Shown piece by piece: positions 7,501 through 64,000 of a stretch of 64,000 nucleotides of DNA (within the stretch, counting starts at the first letter, position 1; each line of letters begins with the position of its first letter). The notes beneath the pieces are model-generated. The model worked only from the letters and a program-made list of their open reading frames with translations. It did no database searches and was not told the origin of the DNA. The stretch covers positions 62,001 to 126,000 of the forward strand of contig CANTFL010000873.1 in NCBI GenBank assembly GCA_947650285.1, given 5' to 3'. The position numbers and the translations under genes were made by a program. This DNA comes from Hyaloperonospora brassicae. Lineage: Eukaryota > Oomycota > Peronosporomycetes > Peronosporales > Peronosporaceae.

Positions 7501-8457
7501 CCTGCTGTCAGCATACCTGTCCCTGCTACAACCACCGCTGCCACCGGCACCGCCACTGTTCATATTATGTGCACCGCCATCATCCGTCTCGTCACTTGTC
7601 GTGCGTTCGCGGTCACTGTAAGTTCCACACGCCACGTCTCTCCGATCCAGCGGCAACGCCGATAGCGACACGCGTCGTACTTCCACCTGCGATCGGCCTC
7701 TACCGTCTTCGTCCACGTCTTCTCCTCTGTCTCGTCGTCGTCGACGTCGTCCATTCGACGTGAGAATGTCGCCGTTTCTCGCGCGAAAACTCGACATGGA
7801 CACTGCGCTTGACCCTCCGTTGATCCTGCCGATAAACAACTCGCTCCCGTCCCGTCGGTCGTCCAGTATCCGTCCCCCGCCATTGCTCTGTCCAGTCCAC
7901 GCCGCGGCAGTGTCCTCGAGCTGTCCATCGCCGTCGCCCGTGCGACCGCTGCCGTCCGACAAGAGCACGAAACTGCTATTGCGGCCACTGGCCACGTGCA
8001 ACAACTCGTCCCGTCCGCCACTAGTGTCGCTGTGCCGCCGCGGCGCAGTCGTCGCCTCGTGCCGCCGACTGCGGCCCGTCTGCCGCTGGTACACCATCTT
8101 CGCGTGCGCTTTCTTGGCCGCGACAGAGCACTTGGCGCACACGCGCACGGGCGCAAAGTAGTTCGAGTGCACCAGCGGCATGCGCGCCGAGGAACACGTG
8201 TCGCAGAAGACGTTGCCGCAGCGCCGGCAGTGGTGGCGCCGCAGCATGAGCGAGAAGGCCGTCTGGCAGCTGTAGCAGCGCTCGGCTAAGCTGTCGGGGA
8301 CCCACGCGACGACGTCGCGATGCGGCGGCGCGTGCAGCTGCTGCTGCTGGTGCTGCTGCTGCTGCTGCTGCTGGGGATAGTGGGCGGGGCGCGCGTGGTG
8401 GCGACGACGGGCGGCGCTGGGGGCCGAGTGCGGCGGCGTCGGACCGGTCGAGCGCAT
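4501..8457 (-). CDS. FYVE-GRAM-myotubularin phosphoinositide 3-phosphatase
   Basis: A 1318-aa protein with no introns. After a poly-Gln, low-complexity N-terminus comes a FYVE zinc finger (about 52-113) with WVPD, the CxxC pairs and the RHHCRRCG ligand-binding basic patch, which binds PtdIns3P on endosomes. A PH-GRAM domain follows (about 320-440, with YVTNFRLVFSP). The myotubularin phosphatase domain spans roughly 480-940. It carries the CX5R active site HCSDGWDRT with catalytic Cys785 and Arg791, so the enzyme should be active and dephosphorylate PtdIns3P and PtdIns(3,5)P2 at position 3. The long, Ser-rich C-terminal region ends in a coiled coil (about 1283-1318). Low-complexity inserts are large. 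In human MTMR3/4 the FYVE domain is C-terminal; here it is N-terminal. Start: ATG at 8457, the first Met of the frame. Confidence 0.93.
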   Translation of the reverse strand: MRSTGPTPPHSAPSAARRRHHARPAHYPQQQQQQQHQQQQLHAPPHRDVVAWVPDSLAERCYSCQTAFSLMLRRHHCRRCGNVFCDTCSSARMPLVHSNYFAPVRVCAKCSVAAKKAHAKMVYQRQTGRSRRHEATTAPRRHSDTSGGRDELLHVASGRNSSFVLLSDGSGRTGDGDGQLEDTAAAWTGQSNGGGRILDDRRDGSELFIGRINGGSSAVSMSSFRARNGDILTSNGRRRRRRDRGEDVDEDGRGRSQVEVRRVSLSALPLDRRDVACGTYSDRERTTSDETDDGGAHNMNSGGAGGSGGCSRDRYADSRFQTLPGEAVLVRNDNVRLRFLDHVEHVGRLYVTNFRLVFSPAWKESVDDSRVVRCGLEEARTMIHAGKLELVDACGLHATSYKSYQAIPLVTIERVKRKEMVETDSGLLEIVGKDFRWLQFVFEGLVSKQTFSKFDRSYALARLHAIGEPEGKVDEFAKFSLERFDGVNGAVDGWTIFDAVTEFQRMGISSFTDRWRLSYINGAYDLCPTYPSVLAVPTAASDRVLAVASKFRSKGRIPVLSWRDRKTGAVICRSSQPLVGLGQKQCDKDVFLIQAIAATNPSSTKLVIIDARPWKNAIAQKTVGRAGYELTEHYETRHTTAKLKYTDMVASEQSAAAAAAAVSAGPTAGTIPEISVDGDMHYLDRSCGINGSGGGDAGRHNSEPTRPSLVLTECKLIFMGIENIHTMRKSYHKLMDLCTTKQNNDKWLDQLASTHWMDHVSRILDSAVEIARIVKEQKSSVLIHCSDGWDRTAQLTSLTELLIDPHYRTIDGFQLLIEKEWCSFGHKFRDRTSHGASNSSNEFSPIFLQWIDCVWQVLVQFPSAFEFNERYLILILDHLYSCRFGTFLYNSERERLEQESVHPTQSLWSYLSTIDRAIVMNPFYRPRTASRTKCTESVTATEQCVGKMAVPAYGSLPNERFKDGFGLSVGLDARCRTTTAIACKSTGSVDLSPLRSEAELADTGAGIHFGLDVQRDRFDNDDLQQRGNGRDCERESDMRSVQSSCPRKLVIMRDLDSGLSFPQSLDASSLSKYTSPLPVAPRSRSLNFCSNAGDSAAVGRERVPNARSSMTSFVVPAEELSASAMWTTSGTGNAAEADEAGRYGDSASCEDVIIPSSSMKSLHFWVHYYLRWDPNSHFDRDASVKLETLHLGLVLQIKALTQRIDTVREGEAAKWEHKMQHSLYDSQNRCDCVGSTTSSLSPLRGRRCCNQRATSGGSTSSQDSGFGASLTTESKDAIASSQDLESQIARLKFEKLERLREAEDIYEEELTRLLREAD
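8336..8373. repeat. CTG/CAG trinucleotide tract encoding poly-Gln
   Basis: A run of CTG units, interrupted by one GTG, lies inside the phosphatase gene. It encodes two glutamine runs near residues 29-40 of the minus-strand protein. Such a tract is likely to vary in length between strains. Confidence 0.9.
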
Positions 8458-8645
8458 GAGATGGAGTCGCGCGGCGTCGGTGGCGGGCGGGTGCGGAGAT
8501 AGTGTGGTGCACGTGAGTTAACGCAGCCACCAAGTGCAAGTTGAGGACGCGGGTGCCAACTGGTGTGGTGGACGCAGTGTGTGAGAGTCGTGTCGGTGCC
8601 GGAGAGGACCACGTGCGTGTCGACCGTCTGTTTGATGGATTAGCA

Positions 8646-28054: not shown

Positions 28055-28651
28055 TTAGGACGGTGTATAGCCGGTAGAGGCATACACTGCGTTATTCAAC
28101 GTATACAAAAGGATAGGAAGCATGAAGATCCACCGATTAGGAATATCGTCGTATATACTGCGTAAAATATCACAGATATAGCAGTGTACTCTATCGATCT
28201 GATCATCGGTCTGCGGATGATCCGCTGTGAACATGGCCATACGGGTGTCCAGCACTTTGAGGACGGACTCTAAACTTTTTAGTGAAGCGAGGACCTCTAC
28301 CAAAGATAATCGTCACAGGCAAAAATTGTTGACGAAACAGTTAATCGATAAACAGATTTGCTGTACTTTCGTCATAAATGGTATCTGTCCCAGCCTCCAA
28401 GTGAAACATTCTACTCAAACGTATGACGAAGACCACAATGCGAGTGTCGCCTATCGAATACTTTGTTAAGCCATTCACAAGGTCTATACCCATATATTCC
28501 CAACATACAGAAGGTGCGGGTAAAGTGGCGAGCGGTGCAGTCAAATGTGGTGGGGGTAGACGTTTGACCGGTGGCACGTACGCAGATACAGGCTACATAC
28601 TTGTAAAGATTGGACCACAAATATTGTTGGGTCACAGAGATATAGATCATA
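28055..28651 (-). pseudogene. Gypsy integrase core remnant
   Basis: The minus strand reads LWSNLYKYVACICVRATGQT (zinc-binding region, degraded), then WEYMGIDLVNGL and IVVFVIRLSRMFHLEAGTDT, and finally FTADHPQTDDQIDRVHCYIC with LLYTLNNAVYASTGYTP. These are the DDE integrase landmarks D...D...E region in order, with frameshifts. The family B solo LTR sits immediately upstream, at 28652-29092. Confidence 0.85.
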
Positions 28652-29092
28652 TGTAACGGGGCACTGACGACTACGTACTGGTCAACCAGTACAGAGTTTA
28701 CTATCACTGACTGGGTGATAGTCAGTGCCCGGCTAGGTGTTGCAACTCACACAGAGGAAGATGGAACAAGTAAGGTAAAGACTTAAGTCGAGGTAAAAGT
28801 AAAACTGTTATTATTAGAATTGATTCCTATAACTCCTTGTGTCTTTGTTTATCCTGACTTAATTGTACTAATGGAACTGAATGTAAGATGACGACTAGTC
28901 ACCACCCATTGCGCACGTCTAGCAGCGATTGGTGTGTTGATATCATCACGATATCAACCAATGAGTATACCCTTCGGTCATCTTCAACAATATCATCATG
29001 CTCTGTGATATTGTTGAAAGAATATTCAACGTAATATTGTTATTGTCATATTCTCCCTAATGACAATTTCATGTAACGGCTACCCCGGTACA
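28652..29092 (-). mobile_element. Solo LTR, family B, copy 1
   Basis: It runs (plus strand) from TGTAACGGGG to CCCCGGTACA and is related to the LTR at 61007-61397 in the opposite orientation. It interrupts the integrase of the older Gypsy element. The flanking 5-mers are TCATA and TCTTA (4 of 5 match), consistent with a decayed target duplication. Several of the inverted repeats of the young LTR are still recognisable. Confidence 0.85.
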
Positions 29093-29151
29093 TCTTATAT
29101 TGTCTGAGATGACCCAGTAACGAAGTGCTATGCGGCTAAAGAGGGTACGAT

Positions 29152-29436
29152 TTACCGATTCTTTATCGTGCTAAGCGCTAATGCATGAAAGGTATTAAAA
29201 ACTTGTGCAGTAGCACAATAGACCTCTACCGATTGAATATCGATGCAGTCTTGCACGCGAGCGTTCTGACAATTCTTTGTCTGAGTCGGTAAAATATTGT
29301 TTCCGAGCGCACGTAGCAGAGCTACACCGTGATAATCACGGTTGCAGGCCGTAAGAATCACGTCCGATGCAGGTGACGACATAGTCGTAACGTGAGCAAG
29401 GTCATAGTCAGGCCTACCCGATAAGGAATCAGCCAA
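29152..29436 (-). pseudogene. Gypsy RNase H / integrase junction remnant
   Basis: Minus-strand ADSLSGRPDYDLAHVTTMSS is the well-conserved ALSRRPDY motif at the end of RNase H, followed by the linker to integrase (DYHGVALLRALGNN). The frame continues into the integrase N-terminal region, where the solo LTR is inserted. Confidence 0.85.
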
Positions 29437-29439
29437 AGC

Positions 29440-30860
29440 GTTACGCCATCCCGCCTTATACTTATCATAAGAGTTCTATGTGGCAAATAAAGAAATCCAA
29501 AGAGACATTATCTGAAGGAGATGAGGCGACTGGTCAGCAGTGCGCAATGGCTCATGATCGGTATATATCACAAAAAGCTTGGAGACAAGCAGGTAAACTA
29601 CAAATTCGACGAGATCGTACTCCATTGCATGTATCCATTTGATATGGTCAGAATAGTTTTTCTCTGCAGCTTTTAGATGGTGAGGTCCATATGCGAAAAA
29701 CGCTCATAACCGTCCTAATTATCTTGAAGTAATGAACAGCCAACAGCAAAGTCAAAAGCGTCACAGACAACACCAAAGTAATGCGCAGGGTCTGGCACAG
29801 TCAAGACCAAGGCCTGAAGGAGCATCTCCTTTACAGCTTCAAATAAATCGTTTGGTAGGATAGGCCCGAAACATTCCATATAAGTTTTGAGAGCTTAGAT
29901 AAAGGTCGAGCCATGTCTGCGGAATTGCACTGTACTTGTGTAAGTTGTTGGAAAGACTGATAGACTTGCTTGCGTTCTTTTGGTTCTTAGGAACCGGCCA
30001 ATAAGCAACGGATTTGACATTAGTGGAATCTTCTTCTAAGACTTGCTAACCAATGAAACATCCGAATAACGGGGGCAAATTCAGCACGATAGAGGCTTTA
30101 GTGAGTTCGCATCACGAGTATTCGTGTGCAAACACTCAAGTACTGTTCGTAAATAATCAATATAATGGTGCACGTTGGACCGACCATTTGATGCACAAAT
30201 ATAGACAAAATTTCACGAAAGTGCTTAAGTCTATAGGCTCGATAATACCGGAACAAATACGTATCGGGAAGATTGAATGTAGAAGGGGCATTCAAAAGAT
30301 CTTAAAACGTTCAAAAGCATAACGCTTGTGGGGCTGACCGCAGTTAGCGGTATATCTCTGGATCGAATGAGCAATTAGCAGTAATTATCGACAAGGTCGA
30401 GTGCGCTGAACCTGGCACATCCACCCAAGGCGTTTTAAAGCACATTTGTGGGAGAAATAGGGGTCTGGTACGGTATGGTGGCTGCATTTAGCTTGTTGTA
30501 AAAGTGAACAATGCGCCACTTACCATTCGGTCTCTTGACACAAAGGGTGGGCGTAAAATGAGGATAATTACTCTTCAATGCCCTTCCTTTAGCGTGCTTA
30601 TCACGTCAAAAAGTCGTCAATGACGTCGCACTGTTCCATTGGTAAGGGCCAATGTCTTGTTACGCAGTTCTTGATTCCAGAAACCAGGTCAACTTCATAA
30701 CGAATACATCTATTGGGAGATAAAACGTACAGTGGGTCGCTACGCGCCACATCCTAGAGTTCCTTCATCAAAGGATAAAAGGGTTCCATGAGATCTTTAT
30801 GGATCTCAAATTCACTATGGGCGCCGAGTGATATCATCGTGTCATCATGGATAGACTCAT
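29440..30860 (-). pseudogene. Gypsy reverse transcriptase and RNase H remnants
   Basis: Broken minus-strand pieces: RYEVDLVSGIKNCVTRHWPL and SRDRM (RT entry), NAPSTFN (RT NAPATFN motif, near 30290), and LLVSKLFVIYTDHEPLRTAD (RNase H TDH motif, near 29560). Many stops occur. The order is that of a Gypsy pol gene. Confidence 0.75.
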
Positions 30861-31765
30861 TAATCAGAGATAAATTGTTTAGGCTCATCCCCGAGGCGAA
30901 TGACCACAAGGTCGGATAAGTCGCCGTCTTTTAAGGCTTGTCCGTACTTACCATCAGAAATCTTGTCTAGATCGACCAGAGCACTTAAAAATATAAAAAC
31001 CCCACGGCTTACGCTACCATCAACAGGACTACTTACCCCATTGCCAACTTTATAACGTGTTTTATTACAAATCATCACGATGCAACGACATGGAAGAGTT
31101 GCGTTTCGTAGTTGCTGTCTGGCGTCGCTTTCGTGTCTCTGATTACACCTTACACCTCAAACAGGTCGAAAATAGTGTGTCTCCTAATATGTCGCTACCC
31201 ATAAAGCTCTCTGTACGAGAGCCGATGTCCTGACCGACATACAGCCAAGGTTTTTTTAACTTTAACACTTTATATATTGAGTTTATTTGTGCCACTCCAC
31301 GCACAACACGCGAGCTCTGCTGAAGGTGTCTCGTCCCTAGACGATACACGCTTGCAGAATTTGTTGATTCACAATCAACACAAGAGTTGCTTGGCGAGAT
31401 AGGTGAAGCATCACCAGTCGTCGATGTCTATCTCGGGACTAAAGTCATTGAAGTGTTTGGTGTCAAGTAACGCTAATAAGTTAATGTACGACACACTTAC
31501 TACTCAAGATAGTGGCTCGCGCTAGTGGCGCTTTTTTTCATAGCAGAGGTTTGTTCATGACTCTACAAATCTATGCTAGTATTTAAGCACATTGCGCCAA
31601 AGGTATTAACCAATCAATCACGGTTCATGGCGCCCTAGCCAAGCCATTCTAAAAATGAAATCATATATCGCCTCTAGGTCAAGTCCTAGGCAGCGTTTTT
31701 ACGCTATAGGAGTCTATTAACTTTACGCCTTAATTGTTAACAATCTTTGGCGATGTGACACACAT

Positions 31766-54829: not shown

Positions 54830-55353
54830 TGTAACGGGGCACCGACGACTTCGTACTGGTCTGCCAGTACAGAACTAAGTATCACTGACAACAGTGAAGG
54901 TCAATGCCCAGAAAGGTGTAGATAATACACAGAGGAAGGAAAATGACTATGGTAAAGATTAGTCGTGGTAAAAGTGAAACTTTTATTATAGCAATTAAGC
55001 CCTATAATACTTGTTTCTCTGTTAGTACTGACTTAATCTTATTGATATAACTAAAGGTATGATGAAGTCCACTCACCACCCATTTTTGCGCGAGTCTAGC
55101 AGCGATTGAAGATTGATATAAACCTACTAGAATGATAATAAACCCCAAAAATAGACTGAATAATAAATTAGTATTTTGATAAAATTAATATAAGATAATA
55201 ATATTATCACAATATCAACCAATGAGTAGACTCTTTGGTCATCCCGACAATATTCTTAAACTTAGGGATATTGGTATAAGAATATATAACGTAATCTTCT
55301 TTATTGCCATTTCTTTTTAAAGATAATTTCATGTAACGGCCTACCTTGTTACA
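54830..55353 (-). mobile_element. Solo LTR, family B, copy 2
   Basis: From TGTAACGGGG to CTTGTTACA. It is related to 28652-29092 and, inverted, to 61007-61397. An AT-rich stretch of about 80 nt (near 55120-55205) is extra compared with the other copies. The flanking 5-mers GCATG and GCATA (4 of 5) fit a target duplication, so this is a solo LTR left by recombination. Confidence 0.85.
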
Positions 55354-56322
55354 GCATACTCTATCAGAAGGCAACTGCTTGTGATTTCTAAATCTGCCGC
55401 TGGACGAGGAGGTGCTGTAATGTTTGTGACGCGGAAGGCTATGCTACATCAACCGTCTAGAATTTTCAAGCGTCGAGACTTTGCAAGCGTCGAGAAGTTG
55501 TTCGTCTGCGCTATCGTGTGAGTCAATCATGTGCGCACGCACGAGTGAACAGCACATGACTCTTAGCGAACGACCGAAATTTGTGCCTAATCAAGAGTGG
55601 CACGAACATGTATATAGATGCACATAAAGAAGCACCTACTCGATCGAACCTTGCATGATGTGTGGTATAATCCGCGCGCGAGCACACAGACGTGGACACA
55701 AGTCAATGCACGCACAGACAGTAAGCAGATGTGGAGAAGTATAGCAATCACAGCACGCAAACACTCGAACGGTTTCATGACTTTGCCGTTATGATCGTAA
55801 TACAAACGCATGATGTTGTTTTATTGATCTTCAACATCAAGGGCATGTTGCGTCTTTCGACTGTTTGCCAATGATGTAACGAGCGCGAACTAGAATGAAA
55901 GATAAGGAGACGACGACAACTACAAGTCTAGCAGATGACACGTCGCCTGACTGGCCACTGCTAGGTGTATATATGTCGTGTTGTGCATGTACAAGACGAT
56001 GGCAATCAAATATATTACATAGGTGGTTATTGCCAAAGCTACCAGGCGAGTTTATCTTCGGTCGCGCTGAGCGGCAAGACATCAGTCATCGTGTAGCTGC
56101 CAAAAACTTGGTGTACTCGCCTTGATGATTGCCGCGTCACGCTCTCAACTTATCACCGTAGTCATCGTATAGTTTGGTCCAGCCATTTTCATGCTAGCGA
56201 CTAAGAGGCGTCCTTATGCAGCTCCCATTCCCGAAAGACTTGCCACAGAACGTACTCGGGTGTCGCTTCTCTCCTTGTGCATCTAGCCCGTTTCAGCATG
56301 CTCCACAACTGTCTTCTTCGGC
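55354..56322. other. Intergenic region, nothing recognised
   Basis: This lies between the solo LTR and the 3' end of the effector gene. Short open frames have no motif. It presumably holds the effector 3' UTR. Confidence 0.5.
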
Positions 56323-59762: not shown

Positions 59763-61006
59763 ATGAGCCCAAACACGCCGGACGCGGGCGACATTCTTCG
59801 TGAAGACAACTACTTCGAATGGAAGTTCAACGCAAGGATGAGGCTGGCAAAGAAGGGATTGTTAGAACATCTAGACGCTATGAAAGCCCCGGAAGCAGGA
59901 GACGCAGCCGCGTCAACTTGGAAAGTCAACGGCATGAAGGCCTTTGCGATCGTGTCTACAATGATCAGCATAAATCTTCAGTCATTGGTGCGCACGGCGA
60001 AGTCCACGGCAGAAGCGTGGAACATTTTGAAGACGTTCTTCCTGCGACAAAGTATGCACAATAGGGTGCAACTTCGACGGCATCGTCATGAGTTCAAGTT
60101 GGCCAAGGAAGAAAGCATCATGGATCACTTCATGAGATCTGACGAGCTGTGTATGACTGTGCAACCTGTTGGACAAGAGATGTCACAGGAGGATCATTAG
60201 GTCATTCTTTTGGGTAGTCTAACGAGAGACTACGACCACATCGTCAAGATAATTGAGAACATGCCCGGCATGACTATGTTTCAGGCAAAGGAAATGCTGA
60301 GACGGGAGTACGATGGAATGAGAAGGACAGAGCACCAAGAAGTCGCACTGAAAAGTACGCATACTTTTAAGTACCAGAAAGGACCACGCCGACATGAAGG
60401 GAGGTCAAGTTCAAGAGATGAAAAGTTCTCAGGAAGATGTTACCGATGTAACAAATATGGGCACAAGCGTCAGGATTGCGGAGTTGCACAAGAGGAGACA
60501 AGGCGATCTGGGGAAGAGAGAGCATTTACTGCGTCTTGTCCGACGTCTGCTGGATGGTTACTGGATAGTGGGGCGAGCAGCCACATGTGTCCTGACAGAA
60601 ATGAGTTTTCGAAACTAGACTCACTGAAGGACCCAATCATGAAAACCATAGAAGACGGAAGCGAAGTAAAAGCACAAGGCGTTGGGACAGTGTGTTTGCA
60701 ACTCAAGACTGGTGAAGTGATCAGGATCGAAGAGACACTATGGGTGCCAGGCCTGGACCGAAGGCTATTGTCAATATCGGCATTTTCAAGAAAAGGACTT
60801 AAAGTGATCTTCTCAGATCTGAGCTGTCAGATCAGAAGTAACGCGGAAGTGATTGCTCAAGTCCCAAGGCGGAACAAGATGTACGTCTTAGATTGCAGTC
60901 CAGTTGAGTCAGCCAATATATGCGAAGCGACTAATCAAGAGAAAAGATCAAGAGACGAATCAGGAGCGGCTGATCTACATGTGTGGCATGCAAGGTTAGG
61001 TCACCG
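59763..61006 (+). pseudogene. Copia gag-protease, truncated by a Gypsy insertion
   Basis: From the ATG at 59763 (the frame is open a little further upstream) the polyprotein has a UBN2-type gag (EDNYFEWKFNARMRLAKKGL, AWNILKTFF), a zinc knuckle CYRCNKYGHKRQDC, the protease active site WLLDSGASSHMCPD and the gag-pre-integrase motif VWHARLGH. This is the Ty1/Copia order. One in-frame TAG (60198-60200) interrupts gag; otherwise the frame continues to 61006. There the family B LTR begins, cutting the element right after the pre-integrase motif. Integrase and RT are not seen; they could lie beyond the Gypsy element outside the window. Few mutations suggest a fairly young copy. Confidence 0.85.
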
Positions 61007-61397
61007 TGTCCTGGGGCAGCCCGTTAAATGAAATTGTCACTTTAAGGAAAGTGACAATAAAGAATATAAAGATGGATATTCTTTAAACAATATCACCAAA
61101 GTGGTGATATTGAAGGGTCGACCAAAGGTTCTGTTCATTGGTTGATATCGTGATGATATCAACCCACCAATCGCCGCAAGACGCGCGCAATGAGTGGTGA
61201 CGAGACGTCACCATACATGCAGTTATATTAGTATAATTGAATTAAGTCAAACGAAGAGACAGTAGTTTAAAGACTTACTTATATTAATATAACAGTTCTA
61301 CTTTTACCCTACCTACGCTTCCTCGCTTGCCACGTGTACGTCCGTCGGGGCACCCAAATCCCTTGCGTTAAGTTACGCAAGGGTGTGCCCCGTTACA
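61007..61397 (+). mobile_element. 5' LTR, family B
   Basis: 391 bp, TGTCCTGGGG to CCCCGTTACA, with related inverted ends. It is related to the solo LTRs at 28652 and 54830. It contains six perfect hairpins of 8-11 bp, for example 61033-61058 (11-bp stem, loop 4) and 61088-61112 (11-bp stem, loop 3). Near its 3' end is a two-level hairpin (GGGGCAC...GTGCCCC around CCCTTGCGT...ACGCAAGGG, 61347-61391). Confidence 0.9.
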
Positions 61398-61412
61398 CCT
61401 GGTAGCACTTTG
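61398..61412 (+). other. Primer-binding site
   Basis: CCTGGTAGCACTTTG directly follows the LTR. TGGTAGCA fits the complement of a tRNA 3' end (…CCA), probably initiator methionine tRNA. Confidence 0.6.
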
Positions 61413-61441
61413 TAGTCCTTCCAAGGACCACATCATCCAAC

Positions 61442-62596
61442 ATGAACATGTTGGATGAAGAATACACCTTTCACGCCACGCGTGAAGGGTTTACCCATTT
61501 GAGTGACATCGAATGGGGTGCGGTAGAACGAATGAGTTCTACTGTAGGCGAACTCGTCGTTAGCGCTATGTTGGCGTCTCTAGACAGAGACGAACAACAT
61601 GCCGCTATCGCCAAGTTCATTCAACATGAACTTGCTCTCGAGAGGGAGAAAGTAGCCTTGCTTCACCAGCAAGGCTCTCAACAGGCCGAGCAGTTGAGAG
61701 AACTCGGTGCTCAACAGACGGAGCTGTTGAGACAGCAGCAATTCCATGCTGCTGTGGGCGGGACGGCGCATGCGCGTCGTCCCGAAGTCATGAAAGTTGA
61801 CATCTCCACGTACTGTGGAGTCTCGGGAGACTCCCTGTTACTATGATTTGTCGAACTCGACAGATCCCTAAGGTCTCTTCGCGTCGAACATGAGCATATG
61901 AATCTCACATTTGCTCAGACACACTTGGCAGGGCGTGCCAAAACTTGGTCCCTGGGACTCGAGAGTAGCGACCCACATGTGTTTAGGTCGCTAGATGACT
62001 TCAAGTCCCGGCTCAGACAAACGTTTGAGCCGCCACGGGCTGAGTTCAGGGCTCGTTCAGAGCTCCTGAAACTCAAGCAGGGTAAGCGTGATGTGCACGC
62101 TTACGCACAACATATACGACTCCTTGCGAGTAGTATAACTGCTAACCCAGTACATGAACACACGTTGATTACGGTGTTCATGCAAGGGCTCGCAGAAGGG
62201 CCCGTCAGGAGTCACCTGTTCCTCCTTGAGCTGAATACGCTGGAAGATGCGATATCAGCCGCAGAACAGGAAGACTTTAGCATGAGACAGGCTCATGCTA
62301 GCTCAAACTCTTATCGTCCACCGAGACGACAAGAGATCGGAGGTCCAGAACCAATGGACCTCTGCTATGTTGAGAGCGAGAGACCCCGCTCTTCAAACAA
62401 CAAGCGATTGCAGAGGTGCAATCGCTGTCAGAAGTTAGGGCACTACGCATACGAGTGTAGTGCTCCACGCCCAGTACCAAACAGTACTGGGCGAAATGGA
62501 CGACCTTTTGCCAGAAAGGGCAATGGGCGTGGGTCCAGCGCTGTTGCGAAGCCGCAACAGCGAGACGGACCATCAAAAAATGGTCGGGGTCAGTAG
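61442..62596 (+). pseudogene. Gypsy gag (family B), one nonsense codon
   Basis: A 384-codon frame starting at ATG 61442, interrupted only by TGA at 61844-61846 where the context (SLL-stop-FVEL) suggests a former Trp codon. An N-terminal Gln/Leu/Glu-rich coiled-coil stretch (about residues 60-105) precedes the retrotransposon gag domain (THLAGRAKTWSLGLESSDPH, SRLRQTFEPPRAEFRARSEL, HAYAQHIRLLASSI). The zinc knuckle CNRCQKLGHYAYEC and a basic Arg/Gly tail follow. Gag forms the virus-like particle and binds the element RNA. The frame ends at TAG 62594-62596; protease follows in the -1 frame, and that frame is already open across the gag stop, as in elements that use frameshifting. Confidence 0.88.
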
Positions 62597-63561
62597 GGGC
62601 GGAGCGCCCTACTGATCCAGCAACCTCAAGAGAATTTGCAAATCTCTTGACGAAAGTTGCTCCAGATACACAATCTTTGTGTGTCTCTGCACCTGGTGAT
62701 GACGTTTCGCTCATCACCTTGAAGTTGGAAGCGACAAATGATTTGTCGCTTCGTGCCCTAGTAGACTGTGGGGCGTCGAACAACTTTGTTCGTCGCCAGT
62801 CACTAGAGGGTCGTAGGCTCAAGTTCGTTGAGCGCGACATTCCCCTCACAAGGATGACGGTGCGCCTTGCAACAGGCGCATCGATAACCCTTGAGAAACG
62901 TGTAGTAGGAATCCACTACACGTTAGAGGGCGAACAGTACGATGATGACTTCATCGTACTGGATCTGGATGACAATTTTGATGTCATCCTGGGATAACCT
63001 TGGCTCAGAAGGCACGATCCAAGGGTGAGCTGGCAGCATCGATCCGTGAAGACGCCTGCCGCTTGTTCATCAGATGGCCATCTGATGAACATCTTGGAGC
63101 GTCCACAAGCGTGTGGATGTTCTGCGAGTGAGTGCGATGGCCTCACTTGCGGTACGGTCGTTAGCACGACTGCACAAGATCACAGTGTAGTTGATCACTA
63201 CACTGTGGAGCAAGCTCCCGGCGGCTGTACAGAAGTACAGGCGGCGCCGACGGTCCACTAATCGAAGAAGTCGAGTGAACCGGGACATGGATGCATGCCT
63301 AGCGGGCAGCATCTTAGACAAAAGAAACCTGTTGCCCCCAAGGGGCAACATGGAAATCCTAGGTCGACTGGAGAGTCGACCGTAGAGGATCGGTGCCTGA
63401 CTGTGGTTGCACAGCCACAGTCGGAAGAAGTCGAGGGAATAAGTCCCCACGTACTTGAGGAAGGAATTCCTCAAGAGTCACTTGCTGAAGGATTAGGCCT
63501 TCAGCAACCTGTGGAAGAAAGTTCTGCAGGAAGTAACCGAGACGTTGAACGTCTTGGTTAA
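62597..63561 (+). pseudogene. Gypsy aspartic protease and linker (family B), with stops
   Basis: In the -1 frame relative to gag: LRALVDCGASNNFVRRQSLE carries the protease active site as DCG, a frequent variant of DSG/DTG, and FIVLDLDDNFDVILG is the flap/second motif. TAA at 62995-62997 follows ILG where a residue before PWLRRHDP is expected, and TAA at 63259-63261 interrupts the linker. The linker up to 63561 is hydrophilic (KPVAPKGQHG, GISPHVLEEGIPQESLAEGL). Confidence 0.8.
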
Positions 63562-63578
63562 TGACGGATCAAGTGTAG

Positions 63579-64000
63579 GCGCTTATACAGCTTGATCTGA
63601 TTGTGCCTCCGAAGTTAACTTCGGAGATAACTCAATTGCCAACGCTAGAACCGAAACGGTTCTTGCGTGATCTGCGTAGTGGCAAAGTCAAGCAGATCTG
63701 CATACTCGTCACAGAGGACGAGTATGTGACCGACATTCGGTCGGCAACAGTATTTGCTGAGAACGAACGGGTTCTCAGCAGCTCATCGATGGACGAAAGT
63801 GTCCTCGATGAGAAGACTCGGATTGAGCGATACGCGTCCCAATCCTGGGAGTCACTTCAGGCAAATCCTTTGTATAAGGATTTGATCGAATTCAGGGATG
63901 TGTTCCCTGAATCCGTACCTTGCGAGTTGCCTAAGGACAAAGACACTCGACACGAGATCGAGCTCAAACCGGGCTCGAAATACTGTGTCATGAAGCAGTG
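63579..64000 (+). pseudogene. Gypsy reverse transcriptase N-terminal region, runs off window
   Basis: An open frame from 63579 to the window edge: ITQLPTLEPKRFLRDLRSGK, then LIEFRDVFPESVPCELPKDK and HEIELKPGSKYC. This is the segment before the RT fingers in Gypsy pol. The decayed family A element has the matching RYEVDLVSGIKNCVTR. A frame change between 63561 and 63579 disconnects it from the protease frame. No catalytic motif is inside the window yet. Confidence 0.85.

Follow-up and report, generated by a model that had tools for sequence, protein, structure and literature searches.

The Element at the Locus

The window analyzed here is the whole of a 64,000-nucleotide stretch from the oomycete Hyaloperonospora brassicae (assembly GCA_947650285.1, contig CANTFL010000873.1, positions 62,001 to 126,000 of the forward strand). 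Its final portion, positions 61007-64000, is the 5' part of a chromodomain Ty3/Gypsy retrotransposon of about 8 kb, here called family B, the remainder of which lies beyond the window and extends to L009:8191. The subject of this report is a chain of short, perfect hairpins that runs along the full length of this element, genes included, at a spacing of one per ~55-70 nt. An earlier note on this DNA had counted about 40 such stems between 61007 and 64000, had held that protein repetition could not explain them and that no description of the phenomenon was known, and had offered two possible causes, one being selection that keeps the genomic RNA structured and the other a process of template switching. 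It had also proposed codon-shuffled controls, extension beyond the window, comparison with other Gypsy families and a test for compensatory changes, and had named an assembly artefact as grounds for withdrawing the claim. The parts of the element that fall within the window are as follows (LTR, long terminal repeat; RT, reverse transcriptase).

61002..61006, no strand: 5-bp target-site duplication CACCG, 5' side; its partner follows the 3' LTR at L009:8192-8196, outside the window
61007..64000, plus strand: family B element, 5' part; a defective copy, its gag region interrupted by a stop and its pol frame broken
61007..61398, plus strand: 5' LTR, 392 bp as aligned in copy L015, starting with TG; delimited by self-alignment, the last base possibly being flank
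61442..62596, plus strand: gag region; copy L015 matches Retrotrans_gag, Ty3_capsid and, below cut-off, a zinc knuckle here, and the window copy has an internal stop
62595..64000, plus strand: start of the pol region (protease, then RT); the frame of the window copy is broken before 63579

The architecture of the family is best followed in copy L015:201-8185, which measures 7,985 bp as aligned, the final aligned base possibly being flank. Self-alignment of this copy delimits two LTRs of 392 bp each that are 100% identical, and the copy is flanked on both sides by CAGAG, just as the window copy is flanked by CACCG, so that LTRs and short target-site duplications are found together. In a Pfam scan, its gag frame matches Retrotrans_gag and Ty3_capsid, with a CCHC knuckle below cut-off, and its pol frame carries RVP_2 (86-188), RVT_1 (540-705), RT_RNaseH (794-899), Integrase_H2C2 (1017-1074) and rve (1093-1186), which is the protease-RT-RNaseH-integrase order of Ty3/Gypsy. 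A chromodomain follows the integrase (PF00385, E 1.2e-13), the SH3 domain and chromodomain lying in another frame than pol. Protein matches to pol are 54-85% identical among the best 120 listed, and the closest named proteins among the matches listed come from Peronospora (P. matthiolae, 78% over 95% of the query; P. effusa, 85% over 61%), which by themselves would suggest a host that is probably a downy mildew or a near oomycete relative. The element itself belongs to a known family, the chromodomain Ty3/Gypsy elements; what sets it apart is the hairpin trait. A Foldback or MITE-like inverted-repeat element was considered and rejected, as the self-alignment of L015 gives the LTRs as direct repeats and shows nothing inverted apart from two palindromes, of 28 and 24 nt. 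A scan of L015 against Rfam returned no hits to known RNA families.

The Hairpin Chain and Its Excess Over Chance

Perfect stems were defined throughout as non-overlapping inverted repeats of at least 8 bp with a loop of 0-12 nt. By this measure there are 38 between 61007 and 64000, close to the earlier figure, and all 14 hairpins previously singled out are present, one of them (given as 61434-61457) being in fact a 12-bp stem at 61433-61458. Stem and loop lengths are given below; no strand applies to any of these features.

61033..61058: hairpin, 11-bp stem, loop 4 (LTR)
61088..61112: hairpin, 11 bp, loop 3 (LTR)
61140..61164: hairpin, 10 bp, loop 5 (LTR)
61195..61213: hairpin, 8 bp, loop 3 (LTR)
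61360..61383: hairpin, 9 bp, loop 6 (LTR)
61433..61458: hairpin, 12 bp, loop 2
61612..61634: hairpin, 9 bp, loop 5
61654..61676: hairpin, 9 bp, loop 5
61710..61731: hairpin, 8 bp, loop 6
61732..61755: hairpin, 9 bp, loop 6
61817..61834: hairpin, 8 bp, loop 2
61966..61993: hairpin, 8 bp, loop 12
62082..62104: hairpin, 9 bp, loop 5
62153..62182: hairpin, 9 bp, loop 12
62278..62300: hairpin, 9 bp, loop 5
62340..62362: hairpin, 8 bp, loop 7
62403..62426: hairpin, 10 bp, loop 4 (zinc-knuckle region)
62468..62493: hairpin, 10 bp, loop 6
62539..62562: hairpin, 10 bp, loop 4
62590..62615: hairpin, 9 bp, loop 8
62626..62650: hairpin, 8 bp, loop 9
62695..62718: hairpin, 8 bp, loop 8
62728..62752: hairpin, 12 bp, loop 1
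62897..62924: hairpin, 10 bp, loop 8
62935..62961: hairpin, 11 bp, loop 5
62967..62989: hairpin, 8 bp, loop 7
63064..63091: 28-bp perfect palindrome, 14-bp arms
63181..63207: hairpin, 11 bp, loop 5
63330..63350: hairpin, 9 bp, loop 3
63362..63381: hairpin, 8 bp, loop 4
63399..63422: hairpin, 8 bp, loop 8
63454..63475: hairpin, 9 bp, loop 4
63482..63507: hairpin, 10 bp, loop 6
63607..63626: 20-bp perfect palindrome
63701..63726: hairpin, 10 bp, loop 6
63755..63780: hairpin, 10 bp, loop 6
63862..63884: hairpin, 9 bp, loop 5
63890..63912: hairpin, 9 bp, loop 5

Dinucleotide shuffles of the same interval hold a mean of 0.2 stems (maximum 1, n = 30), or 0.40 in a second run (maximum 2, n = 20), and the remaining 61 kb of the window contain only 31 against 11.5 in 4 shuffles; five of that number are AT microsatellites, and an old LTR of the family B lineage accounts for at least three more. 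The chain exceeds chance and reaches beyond the window: L015, with one LTR counted, carries 106 perfect stems against 1.75 in shuffles (maximum 5, n = 20), which together cover 34% of its bases, and when single mismatches are allowed the whole element holds 141 stems over 43% of its bases, against 0-5 in 10 shuffles. In line with the earlier note, the encoded proteins do not account for it, since codon shuffles that preserve the protein leave on average 0.48 stems in gag where 14 are observed (maximum 3, n = 100) and 1.08 in pol where 54 are observed (maximum 5, n = 100). Folding tells the same story by energy, with all 37 of the 200-nt tiles of L015 falling below z = -2 (mean z -7.05) and a control stretch of the window averaging 0.03.

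Chance, codon bias and protein repeats are ruled out by these dinucleotide and codon shuffles, which leave far fewer stems. An artefact of assembly at a single locus is rejected on the copies: a 1-kb query finds at least 41 places, the window's own included, that match it with 96-100% identity across 99% or more of its length, a count that is a lower bound, and the chain is present in 20 of the 20 stretches fetched from such places. These copies lie on many contigs, and hairpin-poor relatives sit in the same assembly. We therefore regard the possibility that chance, codon bias, protein repetition or misassembly produced the chain as negligible.

A typical hairpin has a stem mostly of 8-12 bp and a loop mostly of 3-8 nt, for a total of ~24 nt; perfect stem lengths in L015 peak at 8-10 bp with none above 14 bp, and loop lengths peak at 4-6 nt. 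Enrichment rises with stem length, from 7.4-fold at 7 bp to 37-fold at 8 and 144-fold at 9, and the excess is far weaker once loops exceed 12 nt (4 vs 0.7 for loops of 13-20 nt, 12 vs 3.2 for 21-40, 8 vs 4.4 for 41-80). Longer stems tend to be lower in GC (rho -0.28, P = 0.004 in family B; rho -0.20, P = 0.15 in the related family L049, introduced below), and the mean hairpin energy is the same in the two families (-13.2 and -13.5 kcal/mol with RNA parameters) despite their different stem length and GC. Stem and loop lengths are negatively correlated in B and L049 and show no correlation in the sister copy L050; bases that pair by chance within loops would produce part of such a correlation, and what is left once this is allowed for is weak (P = 0.08 in B, 0.006 in L049).

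Relatives in the Same Genome

The chain was surveyed in this one genome, with density expressed as perfect stems per kb and identity as that of the RT relative to family B.

Family B: 14.0 stems/kb
Sister-family copies L053 and L050: 9.7 and 6.9 stems/kb
L049 (RT 62% identical): 7.1 stems/kb
L030, L031 and L036 (58-62% identical): 2.0-2.5 stems/kb
L034, L037 and L048 (59% identical): 0.5 stems/kb
Distant L046 and L047 (29-30%) and L033 (no match): 0-0.5 stems/kb

The comparison with other families sets unrelated elements and 59%-identical relatives, at 0-0.5 stems/kb, apart from some relatives that carry chains of their own, and these densities indicate that the trait is confined to part of one clade. 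Two further pieces of the sister family, L051 and L052, hold 22 and 16 perfect stems in 3.2 kb. Searches of viral and genome contig collections returned no relative.

Between family B and its sister, which are 77-85% identical by segment, most hairpin sites are common, 57 of 71 L050 stems being centred on a B stem. At the greater distance of L049 the picture changes: only 1 of 18 alignable L049 stems is recognisable in B. Chains at different sites in the two families imply that they turn over or arose in parallel, the density persisting while the individual hairpins do not. The L049 chain is also the weaker by folding energy, with 61% of 36 tiles below z = -2 and a mean z of -2.79.

Two older LTRs of the family B lineage lie elsewhere in the window.

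28792..29094, minus strand: diverged LTR (79%), family B lineage, with three perfect stems
54967..55356, minus strand: older LTR (72-75%), family B lineage, interrupted, with one perfect stem left

The stems of the first stand at places matching hairpins of the family B LTR, one of them being a 13-bp stem extended outward. It belongs to the sister family (L050-L053), whose LTR matches pair ~7.3 kb apart on several contigs. Around it, at 28392-30900 on the minus strand, is a distantly related Gypsy RT that is 28-42% identical to that of family B.

Several rearranged neighborhoods were also observed. The window copy of family B is nested in another LTR element (window 60201-61031 and L009:8111-9034, with the 5-bp duplication CACCG) that is probably Copia-like; downstream it has an integrase core (Pfam rve, SH3_retrovirus), and on the upstream side reading by eye shows an open frame that contains a zinc knuckle and protease-like sequence. 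At L013:1-161 and 8185-8490 a family B copy adjoins inverted LTR pieces of the same lineage, and the tail at L028:8627-10000 is a 1.4-kb piece in inverse orientation, 89-90% identical.

Selection, Shielding or Arm Copying

Selection that keeps the stems is the best-supported cause of the chain, and a likely one. One line of evidence comes from variation among 19 copies mapped on L015, most of them near full length, to which 10 RT pieces and one tail fragment were added. Of the variants found in at least four of these 19 copies, 9 fall in stems (2708 sites), 76 between stems (4532 sites) and 17 in loops (745 sites), a depletion of stems relative to the sequence between them with P = 5e-8. This depletion depends on frequency. 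With 12 of 20 copies used in turn as reference, and the reference copy left out, the ratio of stem to between-stem variation is 0.75-0.85 for singletons, 0.36-0.54 for variants in at least two copies and 0.14-0.34 for those in at least four. It is found among shared synonymous variants of gag and pol, counted per possible change (15/1267 in stems, 65/1955 between, P = 1e-4), and likewise in the 3' part that follows the chromodomain (shared variants 11/1347 in stems, 40/1566 between, P = 3e-4). The latter region bears an antisense open reading frame (ORF), and is therefore outside the sense genes rather than plainly non-coding.

A second line of evidence is the sister family. Divergence between B and L050 is 0.15 in stems and 0.23 between them, and 43 of the 62 pairs changed on both sides remain complementary (P = 1e-8 against one third), alongside 215 pairs broken on one side. 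Among close copies such compensatory changes are few. None of 95 stem codons in pol departs from an invariant residue, as against 5 of 218 other codons, a difference that is not significant (P = 0.33), where an invariant residue is one shared among the relatives aligned at that codon (7 to 10 of 10); stems have accordingly been made without breaking invariant residues. Family B also avoids the phase in which first codon positions face second ones and third positions face each other: 9 of its 68 stems in gag and pol have it, where a third is expected (P = 2.5e-4). In L049 this phase is taken by 1 of 10 gag stems and by 11 of 35 pol stems.

Reduced variation in stems may also reflect protection of paired bases from mutation. 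Under such mutational shielding, paired bases would mutate less in a single-stranded phase and hairpins, once formed, would persist; the stronger stem depletion of shared variants relative to singletons has been counted on its side. By argument, though, a several-fold lower rate in stems would not yield an enrichment that grows with length to more than 100-fold at 9 bp, and we consider shielding a very improbable account of the chain.

Inverted repeats could also be made and perfected without any benefit to the element if, as it is reverse transcribed or replicated as DNA, template switching or quasi-palindrome correction keeps copying one arm onto the other. The mechanism is documented (PMC8794818), and it would give perfect pairing without a preference for G.U, as well as strand symmetry, both of which family B displays. 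There are 15 unique compensated pairs among the 29 mapped copies besides the 43 relative to L050, and 12 of those 43 are of transversion type, which would be easier by copying. Stems with 0 to 4 compensated pairs relative to L050 number 88, 24, 4, 2 and 1 where a Poisson distribution gives 83.6, 29.5, 5.2, 0.6 and 0.1, so that three stems have 3-4 compensated pairs against 0.7 expected; at least one of these lies in badly aligned sequence, and bad alignment explains the excess only in part. Apart from these three, however, the distribution is near Poisson, and the copies speak against arm copying as a continuing process. Unbiased arm correction would turn about half of all hits into compensated pairs; from the between-stem rates, ~790 stem changes are predicted for the 19 copies, which in fact show 374, and the 12 compensated pairs are spread over 5 of these copies. 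In a post hoc choice of five copies that have few changes in their stems, 34 are observed where 154 are predicted, and no compensated pair. Only one compensated pair is shared by at least two of the 19 copies, ten being in one copy only. Stems that are perfect in some copy and imperfect in L015 occur at 49 places, and the difference amounts to a single pair at 45 of these, to two pairs at 3 and to three pairs at 1. Because compensated pairs are scarce and stem changes mostly concern single pairs, arm conversion is rejected as the main maintainer, and template switching as a whole seems to us quite unlikely to explain the chain. An old template-switch origin of some arms may nonetheless be reflected in the three candidate stems, and to that extent the earlier proposal survives.

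Which Strand and Which Molecule

Internal single mismatches in B stems (G.T, A.C, other) number 23, 22 and 24 with 8 pairs, 21, 17 and 17 with 9 pairs, and 15, 19 and 13 with 10 pairs, and the pairs adjoining stems show no preference between G.T and A.C (17 vs 18 outside, 12 vs 12 inside). Sense and antisense strands fold with equal energy (paired test, P = 0.77). Together, the mismatch counts and the equal folding offer nothing in favor of sense RNA alone. Shared breaks lean to A.C: in B stems 18 make A.C and 10 make G.U, the family-level breaks of the sister family 20 and 7, and the one-sided breaks in L050 alone 66 and 46, whereas shared changes outside stems comprise 82 that make G.U and 70 that make A.C (P = 0.004 for the stem lean relative to these). 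As the static counts of G.T and A.C are about equal, this lean assigns no strand. The pressure looks strand-symmetric or, weakly, directed at the minus strand.

Selection for a structured sense genomic RNA only, whether for packaging, for stability or as genome-scale ordered RNA structure, would account for all of the stem constraint and for the low folding energy (mean z -7.05). It also draws on the loops, whose sense strand is rich in A by comparison with the sequence between stems (0.325 vs 0.248 in B, 0.273 vs 0.232 in L049), and on the GNRA tetraloops of L049, where 15 four-base loops include 5 on the sense and 2 on the antisense strand; in B, 2 of 19 are GNRA on each strand. The near equality of G.T and A.C mismatches, the lean of shared breaks towards A.C and the equal folding of the two strands count against it, and we judge it unlikely. 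The first of the two causes proposed earlier finds support in its appeal to selection, and no specific support in its appeal to the genomic RNA.

Selection might instead act on DNA, through hairpins in single-stranded cDNA or cruciforms in the duplex. Strand symmetry and the lack of any gain from G.T agree with this, as does the slight sense-strand A.C excess among shared variants, which amounts to G.T on the minus strand. That excess is absent from the static counts, and we know of no step in the Ty3/Gypsy cycle that requires hairpins throughout; we rate a DNA-level explanation slightly below one in the sense RNA.

We lean, with some reserve, towards the reading that the whole family B sequence, comprising LTR, gag, protease, RT, integrase, chromodomain and 3' part, is selected to fold locally into a chain of short Watson-Crick hairpins, with the pressure probably acting on both strands.

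A Possible Purpose for the Hairpins

A pressure felt on both strands could act on the genomic RNA together with the minus-strand cDNA, or on sense together with antisense transcripts. At 8-14 bp, the stems do not reach the length of a small RNA and presumably escape dicing. Local hairpins below Dicer length would make single strands unavailable to complementary strands and to the guides of small-RNA pathways. Resistance to RNA silencing is put forward as a purpose of the hairpins only as a guess, and we think it clearly less likely than not to be the right one. In its full form, which is just as tentative, the proposal is a two-strand, fold-on-itself code, in which synonymous and non-coding sites would be chosen such that sense RNA, antisense RNA and cDNA all form the same chain of sub-Dicer-length hairpins, blocking complementary strands and 21-26-nt guides. 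Packaging, RNA stability and protection of cDNA may be alternative purposes. In Phytophthora infestans, LTR retrotransposons account for most of the mapping of small RNAs of 21, 25/26 and 32 nt, and two Gypsy families are matched in both orientations (PMC3522703).

A long antisense ORF on the minus strand lies between the chromodomain and the 3' LTR in the four families examined.

L015:6059-7678, minus strand: antisense ORF of 540 aa (539-540 aa in 8 of 10 B copies checked)
L050:5601-7271, minus strand: antisense ORF of 557 aa
L049:6271-7665, minus strand: antisense ORF of 465 aa
L054, minus strand: antisense ORF of 472 aa

The products of B and L050 are 42% identical and the others are without clear similarity; those of B, L050 and L049 match no Pfam family above cut-off, with weak coiled-coil matches in B, and that of L050 has a single homologue at E <= 1e-5.

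A number of observations weigh against the reading of selected, two-strand folding and its proposed purpose, in addition to possible mutation protection and the sense-strand hints in the loops. A link of the hairpins to the antisense ORF was not found, as a hairpin-free family also has one, of 472 aa. The depletion in LTR and leader rests on 1/435 in stems against 9/789 between. Among the 119 B stems that align in full, no more than 25 remain perfect in L050, and 32 show at least three broken pairs. Relatives share the residue slightly less often at stem codons than elsewhere (0.69 vs 0.72), and the codon-phase shift of B is absent from L049 pol (11/35). L049 retains 39% of the pairs at positions of B stems, which does not exceed the 38% retained in hairpin-free L034 (shifted controls, 25%), so conservation of individual hairpins between B and L049 is unsupported; B stems do not stand at homologous positions in L049, and individual hairpins are therefore not ancient. 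There is no chain in L034, L037 and L048, with RT 59% identical, and at least eight RT matches score the same as L034's own locus, mostly with long open frames, which indicates that the chain is apparently unneeded for amplification. Finally, the clustering of hairpin spans near small-RNA sizes is weak once chance inner pairing is allowed for (P = 0.08 in B, P = 0.006 in L049), and no such clustering is found in L050.

With a third of an 8-kb element in perfect hairpins, family B carries a very dense second code over protein-coding sequence, and copies of varied age, a sister family and hairpin-free cousins within one genome make up a natural experiment. It bears on the open question of whether short perfect inverted repeats are kept by selection or by template-switch mutation, and silencing escape, if true, would be a new evasion strategy for transposable elements.

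Comparison with Known Systems

With other oomycete Ty3/Gypsy chromodomain elements, such as those behind the Peronospora and Phytophthora proteins, family B has in common its LTRs, 5-bp target-site duplication, gag, protease-RT-RNaseH-integrase order and SH3/chromodomain. It differs in the full-length chain of perfect hairpins, which was not seen in L033, L034, L037, L046, L047 or L048. No description of a hairpin-chained retrotransposon appeared among the matches listed in open-licence PMC full text, and as far as the literature search reaches, the chain is undescribed in retrotransposons, as the earlier note had supposed.

Structure that pervades a replicating genome within the limits of its coding sequence is familiar from RNA viruses as genome-scale ordered RNA structure. 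Family B resembles it in having folding energy below that of shuffles all along the element (37 of 37 tiles, against 61% of 36 in L049). It lacks the preference for the sense strand with G.U tolerated, as sense equals antisense and G.T mismatches number 23 against 22 for A.C; its hairpins are locally perfect, short and strand-symmetric, with no gain from G.U. Transposable elements in maize are reported to form miRNA-like secondary structures, self-complementarity being tied to small RNAs and said to act as a signal for the host response. The stems of family B, by contrast, are only 8-14 bp.

Template-switch hairpins likewise predict perfect arms and strand symmetry, but they also predict clustered changes and frequent compensation (PMC8794818), which are mostly not seen in B.

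The nearest published relative that we found is in the mitochondrial genes of Nematomorpha, which carry perfect inverted repeats in coding sequence, and for which template switching is one view discussed (PMC6649704). The two systems are alike in having perfect repeats within conserved coding sequence, dynamic positions and avoidance of the codon 1-2 phase (PMC6649704), and conserved coding sequence and phase bias are indeed both found in B, the bias being absent from L049 pol. They differ in scale, the Nematomorpha arms being at least 15 bp, with a mean of 43 and a maximum of 142 (PMC6649704), against 8-14 bp every ~55-70 nt in family B, where the longest perfect stem of L015 has 14 bp at loops of up to 12 nt. 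Unlike the Nematomorpha palindromes (PMC6649704), the hairpins of family B also occur outside sense ORFs, and the data from its copies oppose arm conversion.

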